Source: Candidatus Roizmanbacteria bacterium CG_4_9_14_0_2_um_filter_38_17
GTDB lineage: Bacteria > Patescibacteriota > Microgenomatia > GCA-00278855
Length of the DNA: 49,753 bases
Reading direction: 5' to 3'
Assembly: GCA_002788855.1 (NCBI GenBank)
Contig: PFSB01000010.1
Location: forward strand, 1 to 49,753
Shown piece after piece: positions 6,738-18,817 of this stretch. Both the position numbers and the translations under genes were made by a program. Position 1 is the first letter of the stretch. The number at the start of each line of letters is the position of its first letter. The notes beneath the pieces were generated by a model. The model had not been told where the DNA came from. It saw only the letters and a program-made list of their open reading frames with translations, and made no database searches.

Positions 6738-7589
6738 CTAGAAGAAATTAATCTGTGCAAATGGAATTAGTGCTGTTACTTCGACAATCACAATGAATAT
6801 TGTCAGCAGTAACCATAAAATCATACCCAACAAGACTCCTAGCGGTCTTATGACAGCTCCCGCAGTAACAAGTAGTATGCCTAGCCATGTAATGTATTCT
6901 ACTACCCATAATCCGAGCGCGTTTGTTAGTGGAGCCACTAAAGATAGGCGCCCGAAACTGTATACCAGTAAAGGCGTGATAAATACCTGGGCAGCGAGAG
7001 TTGTTCGTAGATTTTCCATAAAAATAAACTTAAACCAGCTCGCTACCAGCCCTATCTGTACATTCCAGGAATGTGCAAGGTTGACATTCCTGGAATGTGG
7101 TTTTTGGCCACGGTTATCAAAGATAATTATTCCCAGCGTGGCAAAGAAAGAAAGCTGGAAAGATAAACTAGTAAGCCACTCTGGCTTGATGATGAGCATT
7201 AGTGCGGCGGTAAACAGTAAACTGTAGATGACATAGGTTCTTCGCCCAATGTATGAGATTAACGTCGCAAGCCCTCCCATAATTGTTGCGCGTACAATAG
7301 GCGGATCAGCTCCTACCATGGCTACAAAAAGCGTGATAGTGACCATAGTAGCAATAAACCCAAACCTGCGACCTATGCTGCCAAAGACCTTGTCCACAAC
7401 CCGGATCAAAATTGACACATTTGTACCTGAAAGCGCCACAACGTGTAGGGTGCCAGTTGTAATAAGATCGTTATATAGTGCTTGAGGCATATGGGAATAT
7501 TTCTGACCAAAAAGCATTCCAGCGAGTAAGGATGCCTGCGGCTCGGGTAATTGCTGGTTGATGATGCTGACAAAATAATCTGGAGACAA
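6738..7589 (-). CDS. comEC: ComEC channel domain (Competence domain only)
   Basis: A 283-aa multi-helix membrane protein with the ComEC signature TTGTLHVVALSGTNVSIL (residues about 44-61), followed by about seven membrane helices. It has neither the N-terminal OB-fold domain nor the hydrolase domain of full ComEC; the hydrolase is the next gene. It would form the channel for single-stranded DNA uptake. The start is 4 nt after the comEA stop, so the genes are co-transcribed. A 39-bp palindromic element (7060-7098) sits in frame and adds residues about 164-176 (HSRNVNLAHSWNV) to a loop between helices. Confidence 0.9.
   Translation of the reverse strand: MSPDYFVSIINQQLPEPQASLLAGMLFGQKYSHMPQALYNDLITTGTLHVVALSGTNVSILIRVVDKVFGSIGRRFGFIATMVTITLFVAMVGADPPIVRATIMGGLATLISYIGRRTYVIYSLLFTAALMLIIKPEWLTSLSFQLSFFATLGIIIFDNRGQKPHSRNVNLAHSWNVQIGLVASWFKFIFMENLRTTLAAQVFITPLLVYSFGRLSLVAPLTNALGLWVVEYITWLGILLVTAGAVIRPLGVLLGMILWLLLTIFIVIVEVTALIPFAQINFF
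7060..7098. repeat. 39-bp double palindrome inside comEC
   Basis: Two 15-bp palindromes (ACATTCC-A-GGAATGT at 7060-7074; ACATTCC-T-GGAATGT at 7084-7098) flank GCAAGGTTG. The two halves are also inverted repeats of each other. A near-identical 39-bp copy (one mismatch) is at 28594-28632 in the same orientation and, if translated, the same reading frame. Confidence 0.92.
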
Positions 7590-12250: not shown

Positions 12251-13573
12251 ATGCGGGAATCACTTCTCCTACAAAAATATAAGTCTTATCTTGAGAGTAC
12301 TAATGTATCCACAGCTACTGTGGATAACTATGTGGCTGATGTTGTCTTTTTTTTGGGTTGGTTGATCACCTACTTACCTTCCCATGGATATAGCATAAGC
12401 ACCGCACAGCCTTCTGCATATATTTCTTATGTAGATAATGCTATCGTAGGAGAGTTCTCTGCTCATCTTTCTCGAGGAACTTTTTCGAATTCAACGGTTG
12501 CAAGGAAAGTTGCGGGCTTAAAAAGTTTCTTTAAGTTTGTAGTCACGGAGGGATATTTGACTACTGACCCATTTTTGAACTTCAACATAGATCCACTTAA
12601 TCATAGCCGTTCTACTCTAAGCTCATTTCGTACTTGGCTTCAGAGAAAAAAAGTAACTGATCATACTATAAAAAACTATATCAGTGATATACGGCATTTA
12701 CTACATAATGAGGTTAAACTTATTCCAGAGTCTATTAGGGCCTACCTTATACTACTGGACAAACAATATAGTAAGGCCTCTTATAAAAGAAAGTTGGCAA
12801 GTATACGCAAATTTATTGACTTTATGGAGTCGGTCACAAAACTTGATCAGCAAGCAGCAACTACCTTAAAAAAAGAGCTACTCATAAATACCAATGTTGC
12901 AGATGTTGCATTAAAGGTAGATGTTGTACCAAAAAATGAACCAGACTTAACAATAGACGAGCCTAAATCAAGCATTACTGCCTCTCTCAGGCCTCTTTTT
13001 TCTTCTCACTTTTCCTTGGTGCTACTATTTTTAATCTTATCTTCCAACATATTCCTACTAGGTAGGATGAATACCTCCCTTTCATCGGCTATAAACGCTA
13101 CAACTGACATCTTAGATAAAGGGTCTGCAGGCTCGGTTGAGGATAGTCTTACTGTTACTATTCCTTTTACAGGCAAGCTTAAAGATATGTTTGGAATCCC
13201 ACTATCATATGAAAATGAATTCAGTTTTTCTTTATATCCCACCAGCGACGCTATAGACCCTATCTATAGCACCGGTCGCTGCTCCACTACTCCCGGTAGC
13301 AGTGGTAATTTTACAGTTATCTTAGGTCAAGATTGTGGTCATCCGATTCCTTATTCATTACTACAGCAATACCCCGAAGTATATCTAGGAGCCAGCGTAG
13401 GATTTGGACCTGAGCTCAAACCCAGAATCGCGCTGAAACGTTTTGAGTTTGGCTACGTTGCGCCTACCCCTACTCCTACTCCTGTTATGAGAATTGCTCC
13501 GCTATTTCTTGATGATGAGCTATCTACTCTCTCGGCAGAGCTTGCAACAACAAGCGCAAGTCTTTCTAATTAA
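12251..13573 (+). CDS. membrane protein with tandem recombinase-like core-binding domains
   Basis: A 440-aa protein of unusual build. Residues about 5-105 and 120-205 each resemble the helical N-terminal SAM-like (core-binding) domain of XerC/D tyrosine recombinases (TVDNYVADVVFFLGWL, NSTVARKVAGLKSFFKFV; then HTIKNYISDIRHLLHN, ASYKRKLASIRKFIDFM). The catalytic domain with its R-H-R-Y residues is absent. A membrane helix follows (about 251-270), then about 170 outside residues with a Cys pair (GRCSTTPG, GQDCGHP) and an APTPTPTP linker. I infer an inside DNA-binding-type head and an outside domain; it cannot be an active integrase. -10 TATATT lies 7 nt upstream. Confidence 0.8.
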   Translation: MRESLLLQKYKSYLESTNVSTATVDNYVADVVFFLGWLITYLPSHGYSISTAQPSAYISYVDNAIVGEFSAHLSRGTFSNSTVARKVAGLKSFFKFVVTEGYLTTDPFLNFNIDPLNHSRSTLSSFRTWLQRKKVTDHTIKNYISDIRHLLHNEVKLIPESIRAYLILLDKQYSKASYKRKLASIRKFIDFMESVTKLDQQAATTLKKELLINTNVADVALKVDVVPKNEPDLTIDEPKSSITASLRPLFSSHFSLVLLFLILSSNIFLLGRMNTSLSSAINATTDILDKGSAGSVEDSLTVTIPFTGKLKDMFGIPLSYENEFSFSLYPTSDAIDPIYSTGRCSTTPGSSGNFTVILGQDCGHPIPYSLLQQYPEVYLGASVGFGPELKPRIALKRFEFGYVAPTPTPTPVMRIAPLFLDDELSTLSAELATTSASLSN

Positions 13574-15844: not shown

Positions 15845-16782
15845 ATAAACAAAATACAGTATTTAGCTACATAGTATTAACACTGGGTCTAGCTCTGGCG
15901 GGAGGGTTATCGTATGTAGGTTATAGAGTTGCTGCTGGAGAGTATGTATTCGGTAGATCAATAAGAGAAGCGGCTGCCAATCGTGGAGATGCAACTTACA
16001 ATTCACAGATTCAAGCTATTGGGCTCAATCCTTATGATATAAGATATAGACTGAGTTATGCTCAGACTAACCTTGCGATAGCTAATTCTTTAGCGGCTAA
16101 CAAAGACTTAACAGATCAAGATAGGCAGATTATTCAGCAGCTAGTAACTCAATCTATAGAGCAAGCAAAAAATGCCATAGCCATAGACAGCTTAAGAGCT
16201 GATAGCTGGGCGGTTCTAGCTAATATCTATCAGAGTCTCATAAATGTGGCAGAAGGATCAGATCAATGGGCAGTTGCTACATATCAGCAGGCGATTGCTG
16301 TTGATCCTAATAATGCACAGCTAAGGTTGGCATATGGTCAGTTATTATTTAGCTTAAATGAATTTGAGGCATCCCAACGTCAGTTTGAGCTAGCGGTTTC
16401 CTTAAAACAGGACTATACAAATGCTTTTTATAATCTTGCTTTTGCATACAGCAAGCAAGAGAAACTACTTCAAGCACAGTCGGCAATGACACAAGTATTA
16501 ACTTTAGTTGAAAGAGATTCGGACGATTATAAAAATGCTCAAGAGCGTTTAACTGAAATTAACGACTTGATTGTTCAAACCCAACCTCAACAGCCAGCTG
16601 AAGGCGCACAGGATGTACAAAATAATCAACAGGCAGTTACAAGTCCTTCCCCCACGCCTAAACCAGTGTTGTTTGGCCCTGAAGAGGCAACGAATGAGGC
16701 TTTTATGGAACCGCCACTAGAATTGGATGAGAAGAGCGCAGCTCCAAATGTAACCGTTGCTCCTACTAAAGCCACTCAGTAG
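15832..16782 (+). CDS. TPR protein with N-terminal membrane anchor
   Basis: A 316-aa protein. Residues about 10-32 form a signal anchor (YIVLTLGLALAGGLSYVGYRVAAG). The outside part contains at least three TPR units (IEQAKNAIAIDSLRADSWAVLA, AIAVDPNNAQLRLAYGQLLF, AVSLKQDYTNAFYNLAFAYS), ending in a Gln/Pro/Thr-rich tail. It corresponds to the TPR half often fused to O-antigen-ligase-like proteins in related genomes, so it probably works with the preceding gene. It overlaps the convergent PaaX-like gene by 7 bp. A GTG one codon upstream is also possible. Confidence 0.82.
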   Translation: MKQMNKQNTVFSYIVLTLGLALAGGLSYVGYRVAAGEYVFGRSIREAAANRGDATYNSQIQAIGLNPYDIRYRLSYAQTNLAIANSLAANKDLTDQDRQIIQQLVTQSIEQAKNAIAIDSLRADSWAVLANIYQSLINVAEGSDQWAVATYQQAIAVDPNNAQLRLAYGQLLFSLNEFEASQRQFELAVSLKQDYTNAFYNLAFAYSKQEKLLQAQSAMTQVLTLVERDSDDYKNAQERLTEINDLIVQTQPQQPAEGAQDVQNNQQAVTSPSPTPKPVLFGPEEATNEAFMEPPLELDEKSAAPNVTVAPTKATQ

Positions 16783-17537
16783 TTAGCTTTCTTAAGAAGT
16801 TTTAAGTATAGAGTATATGCTTGTTTACCGAGGTATTCACTTGAAAGTAAATTGAAAGGCAACTGTGGATCTTCTTTTAGGATGGCGAGGTACTCAAAAG
16901 CTATATGCAAACACTCTCTTTTAACCTTAGTTGCCTTATAATGACTGTGTCTTCCTATGAATAGTGCATACTTATTATTAATGTCTTCGAGATTATAGAT
17001 CTTCCAAACCAATTCTTTAAAACTTAAAGCCTCGCCATATATGCCGCTTTGTTTAAGTTCGGAGACCACAATCTGATCATTGAGCTGACCATCTTGGTTT
17101 AGCTTAAGAATGGTGGAATGAGGATTATATGGGGTTAGATATACGCTCTGCTGTATCATCACGGCGCTTAAGCTGACTAGTGCCTTACGGAAGGCGTCAC
17201 GGCGCTGGTTGTGCTTAATCTGAAAATCATAGGTAACCAGATATAGCTTATTGTCCCAGCTACGCTGTTCATCATAAAAAGGAATCTGCCCTTGTAGTCT
17301 TTTTAAGCCTTGCTTGGTCAAAATATACTGTTTGTGTTTAGCTTTATTGTTTAATTTAATCAAGTTGGCTTGACTAAGATTGTAAACTGCTTTTTGAATC
17401 TGAGCAGGGCTAAATACATTAAGCAGCTTGTCTGACTCATTAAATCCTCCACTTTCAATTGCATATAGCACAATATTGTTTAGGCCGTCGATCAAGCCTA
17501 AACTAAGATCATTCACTCTTTTACGGGTGCTAGGCAT
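16776..17537 (-). CDS. PaaX-family transcriptional regulator
   Basis: A 253-aa protein. Residues about 1-80 form a winged helix (VNDLSLGLIDGLNNIVLYAIE, IQKAVYNLSQANLIKLN). About 90-170 resemble the Cas2-like ferredoxin fold of PaaX (WDNKLYLVTYDFQIKHNQRRD, then LVSLSAVMIQQSVYLTPYNP). The C-terminal PaaX domain ends in DPQLPFNLLSSEYLGKQAY. PaaX in E. coli represses phenylacetate genes, but no such pathway is here, so the ligand is unknown. An inverted repeat over its own promoter suggests autoregulation. No cas genes lie nearby, so Cas2 is rejected. Confidence 0.85.
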   Translation of the reverse strand: MPSTRKRVNDLSLGLIDGLNNIVLYAIESGGFNESDKLLNVFSPAQIQKAVYNLSQANLIKLNNKAKHKQYILTKQGLKRLQGQIPFYDEQRSWDNKLYLVTYDFQIKHNQRRDAFRKALVSLSAVMIQQSVYLTPYNPHSTILKLNQDGQLNDQIVVSELKQSGIYGEALSFKELVWKIYNLEDINNKYALFIGRHSHYKATKVKRECLHIAFEYLAILKEDPQLPFNLLSSEYLGKQAYTLYLKLLKKANY

Positions 17538-17603: not shown

Positions 17604-17624
17604 TTTTAAAACCCGGTTTTAAAA
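17604..17624. repeat. palindrome TTTTAAAACC
   Basis: Perfect 10-1-10 palindrome, TTTTAAAACC-C-GGTTTTAAAA, 9 nt beyond the 3' end of the tRNA-like sequence. It may end the LysM-M23/tRNA-like transcript, though it has only short T-runs. Confidence 0.75.
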
Positions 17625-17632
17625 CACTTCTG

Positions 17633-17686
17633 TGGACCTACTGGGAATCGGACCCAGGACACGGTATACCACTTACCTATAGGCCC
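17633..17686 (-). ncRNA. tRNA-like sequence lacking the anticodon arm
   Basis: 54 nt. Acceptor GGGCCTA (17680-17686) pairs fully with TAGGTCC (17634-17640) including G3:U70, discriminator A at 17633. U8-A9, then a normal D arm GGTA-AGTGGTA-TACC with A14 and G18G19. T arm CTGGG-TCCGATT-CCCAG, where U55 is replaced by C. Between base 26 and base 49 only TGTC remains: the 17 nt of the anticodon arm are missing, with no room for an intron. G3:U70 plus A73 are the alanine identity elements. It begins directly after the stop codon of the LysM-M23 gene. It may be a tRNA remnant or a non-decoding RNA; it cannot translate codons. Confidence 0.6.
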
Positions 17687-18817
17687 TTACTGTAGGAAGC
17701 TCATGGGGTTAAGGGCAACTCCATTTTTGCGAATTTCAAAATGTAAGTGAGTACCAGTTGACCGACCAGTTGACCCCATCTGACCGATGGACTGTCCCCT
17801 AGCGACGGCGTCACCCACGTTTACATAATACTGGGAAAGATGTGCGTAGAGCGTCTGAAAGCCATTGCCATGGTCGACAATCACATGACAGCCATATCCC
17901 CATTTTAGACAGCCTGCATATACAACCGTACCTGTGTCGGCTGCGGCAATTGATGGTGCTTGCTTATTGGCAATGTCTATAGCTTTGTGATACCAAACAA
18001 AGTTTTGAGTAATTCTACCATTTGTTGGCCATAGGAATTGGCCATCTCCATGGGCAATAATCTCAGGGGCAAGTGGAACTTGACGAATGACTGGCTTTGC
18101 GCCTTGAATAACTCCATCGGGTACAATTAAGATCTGACCTGTGTCTAAGGCGAAAGTTTCTAAATCGGCGAACTCATTAAAGGGAAAATTTACTATATTT
18201 TGAGCTTCAGCCTGGTATTTTTTGGAAATAGAATAGACAGTTTCCCCTTTTTTAACTGTATGCACTACTCCTGAAACAGGTGGGACTTTTAGCATTGTCT
18301 CGATCTTGAGCACGGGATTTTTGACAGTTAGATCATTTGCCCATTTAATGGTATCTTCAGAAACACCAAACTGTTCTGCAATAGATGAAACAGTGTCACC
18401 CTCTCGAACAACGTACTCAATAACCTGATCACGTGGTTTTTCTGAGATCTGAGTAGAAGTAGATATTTCATCATATGTGAGCGATGACAATACCGCAGAA
18501 GGTGATTCATAGTCCTCAAAGCCCGTTCCCCCCACAATTGGATGACTTTCTTTAATGATTGGAGCTACAATAAAGCCCGCTCCAACTATAACAAATACCG
18601 ATACGTTTAGGAATGAGCGCGAATAACGACCTCGTTTATGCAATAGAAATGTAACTATAATCCCTTTAAAGCTTTCAAAGTGTTCAGCAAAAAATTCTAA
18701 CTTAGACTTGATATAGCTAGCGCTAAATTTAAGCCATAATTTCAAATCCTGCAGGAGAGCAGCTAGGTCACGTTTTAAGCGTGCCTTTTGATGATGCCAA
18801 TGAATTCGGTTTATCAT
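17687..18817 (-). CDS. LysM-M23 peptidoglycan endopeptidase
   Basis: A 376-aa envelope protein. It has a basic cytoplasmic N-part (1-70), a membrane helix (about 71-90), two LysM domains (about 132-180 EYVVREGDTVSSIAEQFGV; about 185-237 HTVKKGETVYSISKKYQ) that bind peptidoglycan, and a C-terminal M23 domain (about 255-376). The M23 zinc ligands are in HKAIDIAN (HxxxD) and HLHFEI. It should cut cross-links in the wall. The tRNA-like sequence follows its stop codon immediately. Confidence 0.93.
   Translation of the reverse strand: MINRIHWHHQKARLKRDLAALLQDLKLWLKFSASYIKSKLEFFAEHFESFKGIIVTFLLHKRGRYSRSFLNVSVFVIVGAGFIVAPIIKESHPIVGGTGFEDYESPSAVLSSLTYDEISTSTQISEKPRDQVIEYVVREGDTVSSIAEQFGVSEDTIKWANDLTVKNPVLKIETMLKVPPVSGVVHTVKKGETVYSISKKYQAEAQNIVNFPFNEFADLETFALDTGQILIVPDGVIQGAKPVIRQVPLAPEIIAHGDGQFLWPTNGRITQNFVWYHKAIDIANKQAPSIAAADTGTVVYAGCLKWGYGCHVIVDHGNGFQTLYAHLSQYYVNVGDAVARGQSIGQMGSTGRSTGTHLHFEIRKNGVALNPMSFLQ

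Follow-up and report, generated by a model that had tools for sequence, protein, structure and literature searches.

A tRNA-Ala(CGC)-derived sequence without an anticodon arm, probably a young pseudogene, beside a LysM-M23 peptidase gene of Candidatus Roizmanbacteria

The window analyzed here, i.e., the whole stretch of 49,753 nucleotides, carries on its minus strand a 54-nt sequence (17633..17686) that resembles a tRNA-Ala from which the anticodon arm has been removed. Is it an RNA that can still be charged with alanine, or the remains of a tRNA that once decoded? The sequence itself, a covariance model (R1) and a comparison with 19 relatives identify the element as derived from tRNA-Ala(CGC), and they suggest that it is probably a young pseudogene of this dispensable isoacceptor.

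A tRNA-Ala body without its anticodon arm

The element, read on the minus strand from 17686 to 17633, is GGGCCTATAGGTAAGTGGTATACCGTGTCCTGGGTCCGATTCCCAGTAGGTCCA. Its acceptor stem (17680-17686/17634-17640, minus strand; GGGCCTA and TAGGTCC) forms 7/7 pairs including G3:U70, and is followed by TA and by a D arm (17663-17677, minus strand; GGTA-AGTGGTA-TACC) with 4/4 pairs. A 5-nt connector, GTGTC (G plus TGTC; 17658-17662, minus strand), leads from there to a T arm with 5/5 pairs (17641-17657, minus strand; CTGGG-TCCGATT-CCCAG). The element ends at the discriminator A73 (17633, minus strand), CCA not being encoded. This direct reading bears out the initial annotation, which had described a 54-nt tRNA-like sequence without an anticodon arm, with paired acceptor, D and T stems and with G3:U70 and A73. 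The latter two, which are alanine identity elements, are common to the relatives, and the alanine identity proposed in that annotation is partly supported: it holds for the origin of the element, as the body of a tRNA-Ala(CGC) gene, and not as evidence for function. The anticodon arm (with CGC, GGC or TGC) that a functional tRNA-Ala requires is not there, and because these 17 nt are missing the element cannot decode.

Standard tools passed over the element. ARAGORN, when run on the window, called only a tRNA-Arg and a tRNA-Ala(TGC), both located elsewhere in it, and in an Rfam scan of the window the element stayed below the gathering score. In the source genome (G000), R1 gave the element 84.7 bits, a score that is partly due to construction, the model having been built from arm-deleted relatives and the element itself; the next match, an ordinary tRNA-Ala(GGC), reached 28.9 bits. 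The first 24-26 nt at the 5' end are identical to the tRNA-Ala of the class relatives G001, G012 and G025, which carry 17 nt more at the anticodon, and this identity to real tRNA-Ala genes, together with the R1 score, indicates that the element did not arise by chance. The nearest relatives share 49/54 bases with it.

The peptidase-linked slot and the missing nucleotides

Upstream of the element lies a gene for a LysM-LysM-M23 peptidase (17687..18817, minus strand; Pfam PF01551, E=1.4e-32, plus two LysM domains), whose stop codon TAA (17689-17687) abuts G1 of the element with zero spacing. The next gene downstream, outside the element, encodes a PaaX-like regulator with a Cas2-like domain (16776..17537, minus strand; PF20803, E=1.2e-9). 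Orthologues of the peptidase occur across the class, the best ones being 50-57% identical, and tRNA-Ala(CGC) is found within ~1.5 kb of the peptidase in 22 of the 29 best orthologous loci, the element's own locus left out. In a hand-compiled, non-random set of 50 relatives having both genes among the matches listed, a tRNA-Ala match lay at most 2.6 kb from the peptidase gene in 34, and downstream of it in 33 of those 34. Since most orthologous loci of the class carry tRNA-Ala(CGC) 3' of the peptidase, the element occupies the ancestral slot of this tRNA. The abutment to which the initial annotation drew attention is thus genuine, but it continues an old arrangement and is not special, because the gaps between stop codon and tRNA are also short in relatives (at the shortest, 3 nt in G232 and 4 nt in G002). 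The linkage being ancestral to an intact, decoding tRNA, it is uninformative on the arm-less form.

The tRNA-Ala(CGC) genes in question (L005, L006, L103-L121 and others) form a short-D-loop subtype, which has the D arm GGTA-AGTGGTA-TACC and G11:C24 in place of the pyrimidine 11:purine 24 usual in elongator tRNAs. Throughout the class, linkage of this subtype to LysM-M23 genes is frequent. The element resembles this subtype in its slot 3' of LysM-M23 and in G3:U70/A73, and differs from it in lacking the 17 nt of the anticodon arm. The relatives all measure 71 nt here, and the deletion junction falls at 17661..17662 (minus strand). The description of bases 27-43 as cleanly absent stands as far as the loss of 17 nt is concerned, whereas the placement is one of two equivalents, the other being 28-44 with T27 kept; T27 occurs in 4/19 relatives, A44 in 18/19 and T44 in 1/19.

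We then compared the remnant with the 19 short-D-loop tRNA-Ala sequences after removal of their bases 27-43. No base of the element (0/54) was outside the range of these relatives, so that the deletion is the sole detectable lesion; there were no private substitutions relative to this set, which is drawn from other families of the class. Against the same 19 sequences, the element keeps 33/36 near-invariant columns. The three exceptions are T44, present in one relative, and the T50-A64 pair, a double change also found in L009. Because both bases of this pair depart from those of most relatives, selection was acting on the T stem up to the deletion, if not beyond it. Under neutrality, the probability of no change at these 33 positions is ~0.18 for a divergence of 5% and 0.03 for one of 10%, meaning that either the deletion is recent or the remainder is under selection.

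Two earlier arguments lose their force in the light of these comparisons. C55, given as a ground for caution, is also the base found in the intact tRNA-Ala genes L005, L085 and L121, and we rejected it as a sign of decay. The intact stems, for their part, had been taken to speak against decay; yet the loss of 17 nt in one step takes out a single hairpin and spares the rest until later mutations, and since one recent deletion suffices to leave all stems intact, selection need not be invoked.

We applied R1 to 374 class genomes; among the best 150 matches listed, all but the element were at least 71 nt long, i.e., complete tRNAs. An exact alanine-type arm-less pattern, applied to 380 genomes of the phylum, matched the element alone, which thereby served as the positive control, and a generic arm-less tRNA pattern gave no match. 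The search of relatives by covariance model, proposed with the initial annotation as a check, went mostly against it: the 54-nt form occurs in no other genome covered (374 of the class, the relatives all coming from other families; 380 of the phylum by pattern), and on this ground we discarded the idea of a novel ncRNA family. The one match among genome contigs, L127, was also discarded: its 5' part resembles a tRNA, but the sequence beyond is unrelated and fits the T-loop motif only by chance.

G000 has 43 tRNAs, including Ala-GGC and Ala-TGC. No other tRNA-Ala(CGC) is among them, and a pattern requiring a CGC anticodon and, after it, the T arm of the element likewise matched nothing in G000. 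However, tRNA-Ser(GCT), which is expected to be essential, was not found in the assembly either, so the missing Ala-CGC could reflect an assembly gap. In nine ORFs of the window, GCG accounts for 40/284 alanine codons. The tRNA set of G000 also includes a tRNA-Ile whose UAU anticodon is encoded in the genome (L034/L064; G000:C17:55456-55527), beside which only two CAU tRNAs were found, a combination that is unusual for bacteria.

Partial copies of tRNA-Ala were seen near intact tRNA-Ala genes elsewhere: a 39-nt 5' remnant (L003:1501-1539), an exact 36-nt 3' copy (L084:2717-2752) and a 17-nt 3' end (L009:1180-1196, minus strand). Judging from these, the tRNA-Ala locus seems prone to rearrangement. 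In the window, a 440-aa protein (12251-13573, plus strand) resembles phage integrases in the N-terminal SAM-like domain alone, with no match to the catalytic domain.

Pseudogene or alanine acceptor

The most probable account, in our view, is that a complete short-D-loop tRNA-Ala(CGC), located directly 3' of the LysM-M23 gene, lost its anticodon arm in a single 17-nt deletion, possibly through a polymerase skipping the anticodon hairpin. GCG codons would then be decoded by the remaining tRNA-Ala(UGC) via wobble, and the loss would be tolerated because of this coverage. Read-through transcription of the peptidase gene probably still covers the remnant, which would have no function and whose stems would be intact for want of time to decay. 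Like a pseudogene, the element is homologous and syntenic to an intact tRNA gene and carries a disabling lesion. The synteny of the slot, the uniqueness of the form, the missing Ala-CGC, the deletion as sole detectable lesion, the 5-nt connector, the predicted fold, the lack of a promoter site and the partial tRNA-Ala copies elsewhere all point the same way; against it, the 33 near-invariant positions kept without a decay mutation would be expected under selection too, and the double change at T50-A64 and the possible assembly gap behind the missing Ala-CGC also count on that side.

As for the fold, thermodynamics alone puts the two-arm form at -19.1 kcal/mol and an alternative at -19.4, with an ensemble probability of 0.07 for the former. 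This is weak evidence, because intact relatives are also poorly predicted in this way. A scan of the minus strand found no sigma-70-like promoter, although CPR promoters may differ from the sigma-70 type. Eight nt downstream of A73 there is a palindrome, TTTTAAAACCCGGTTTTAAAA (17604..17624), which is unique within the window (0 expected) and has related copies at many sites of G000; it is probably a bidirectional, lineage-specific terminator-like repeat.

If the element is a pseudogene, it shows neatly how a reduced genome loses an isoacceptor, and it cautions against taking the pairing of all remaining stems as evidence of function when a single deletion has occurred. Prokaryotic tRNA pseudogenes and fragments (PMC9897764) resemble it as non-decoding remnants that pose the same class of annotation problem; those, however, are end fragments, whereas the element has an internal deletion of exactly one arm. 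In armless mitochondrial tRNAs (e.g., Romanomermis, PMC7730189) an arm is missing as well, but it is the D and/or T arm, and the anticodon is kept.

An alternative, which we hold to be unlikely, is that the RNA has been repurposed as an alanine acceptor: RNase P and the CCA-adding enzyme would process it, AlaRS would charge it via G3:U70/A73 and, being unable to decode, it would supply alanine to a FemAB-type ligase for the wall cross-bridge, or else act as a sink or regulator. AlaRS recognizes the acceptor stem and is established to charge minihelices, and the element has both identity elements and all three stems intact. G000 encodes two FemAB-family proteins, possible users of Ala-tRNA, although these can be fed by ordinary Ala-tRNA. 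The class-wide linkage of the tRNA to a wall peptidase gene also fits, but it predates the deletion; moreover, the 54-nt form is present in one genome only and the two-arm fold is not favored. With its FemAB genes, and with alanine-type tRNA-likes known from phage contigs (see below), the alanine-donor reading keeps some plausibility. Were the element charged, bacteria would possess a natural RNA able to accept alanine but not to decode.

We also regard it as improbable that the gap is an artefact of assembly, sequencing or strain mixture, with the gene intact in most cells and the hairpin dropped from the consensus. The genome is fragmented (28 contigs) and the lost segment is exactly one hairpin, but the junction is clean, the 54 bases and both flanks are normal, and a 17-nt consensus deletion in unique sequence is uncommon for short-read assemblies. 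A mobile-element scar or attachment site is the least credible origin, even if non-canonical tRNA genes are known to arise from fragments left by integration (PMC9897764) and partial copies lie beside tRNA-Ala in L084, L009 and L003, as integration yields 5' or 3' fragments while the element has both ends and no middle, the flanking genes look conserved, and the nearby integrase-like ORF (12251-13573) is matched in its N-terminal SAM-like domain only.

The tRNA-like domain of tmRNA (ssrA) shares alanine acceptance with the type from which the element derives, and the absence of an anticodon arm with the element. tmRNA differs from the element in having no proper D stem and a long mRNA-like part, and the element is not linked to a tag ORF and pseudoknots. 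The only tmRNA-family match at the element reached 14.8 bits, where the gathering score is 84, while G000 has its own tmRNA elsewhere (101 bits); a tmRNA or two-piece tmRNA was rejected for this reason.

Anticodon-arm-less tRNA-likes of phage contigs

A pattern in which the D arm is followed directly by the T arm matched 47 viral contigs, with 40 distinct sequences. In most of these 40, the acceptor stem pairs 7/7 and the T stem 5/5, although the sequences of the stems diverge widely. With a wider pattern that allowed connectors of 2-17 nt, we obtained 81 distinct sequences, whose acceptor, D and T stems are for the most part fully paired, all with connectors of 7-17 nt (mode 8-9) and none (0/81) with the 2-6 nt that the pattern also permitted. 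These genes are found in L128-L174 and L178-L227 (e.g., L162:3635-3692, minus strand; L139:997-1055, minus strand; L150:5474-5530, plus strand).

Alanine-type examples, with G3:U70 and A73, occur in 8 contigs (L130:63-119, minus strand; L150:5474-5530, plus strand; L232:6105-6164; L233:4664-4722, minus strand; L234:746-804; L235:7793-7850; L236:8316-8374; L237:7664-7722), amounting to six distinct sequences, in all of which the stems pair fully and the connector measures 8 or 10 nt. The one in L235 also encodes CCA. Alanine-accepting arm-less tRNA-like RNAs may well exist in nature, as these sequences suggest.

Like the element, the phage tRNA-likes have paired acceptor, D and T arms and no anticodon arm, and some share its G3:U70 and A73. 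They differ in that they are viral and are represented by many diverse copies with intact pairing, whereas the element sits in a chromosomal tRNA context, between LysM-M23 and the PaaX-like gene in class-wide synteny and not in a viral or prophage setting; and its 5-nt connector is shorter than in all phage examples, which weakens the case for an alanine acceptor. That the deletion turned a decoding tRNA-Ala, beside the wall peptidase gene from the outset, into a non-decoding alanine acceptor feeding a FemAB-type ligase, as a chromosomal counterpart of the alanine-type phage genes, strikes us as quite unlikely. The recurrent phage set merits separate study and is a stronger lead than the element; the literature searched, which covered few subscription papers, holds no description of anticodon-arm-less bacterial or phage tRNA-likes.

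Some of the phage genes lie near tmRNA-like genes, the other neighbors being varied (DNA polymerase, tail and terminase genes). GOLLD and ROOL RNAs are known to occur near phage tRNA islands (PMC12286853), and in L152 just 3 nt separate the end of a GOLLD match (6773-7223) from a following arm-less tRNA-like gene of the same strand. In Polaribacter phage Danklef_1 (L229:2495-2552), an arm-less gene located a few genes upstream of the terminase small and large subunits is annotated as 'tRNA-OTHER, Undet NNN'. In P335-type Lactococcus phages, an unannotated arm-less sequence beginning with GGTTCTTTAGCTCAGTTGGTAG either lies between the lysin and the integrase or occupies an end of the genome (L228:2494-2554 in phage bIL309, L230:200-262 in P335 and L231 ~2323-2384 in D7138), and could be a tRNA mimic acting as an attachment site.
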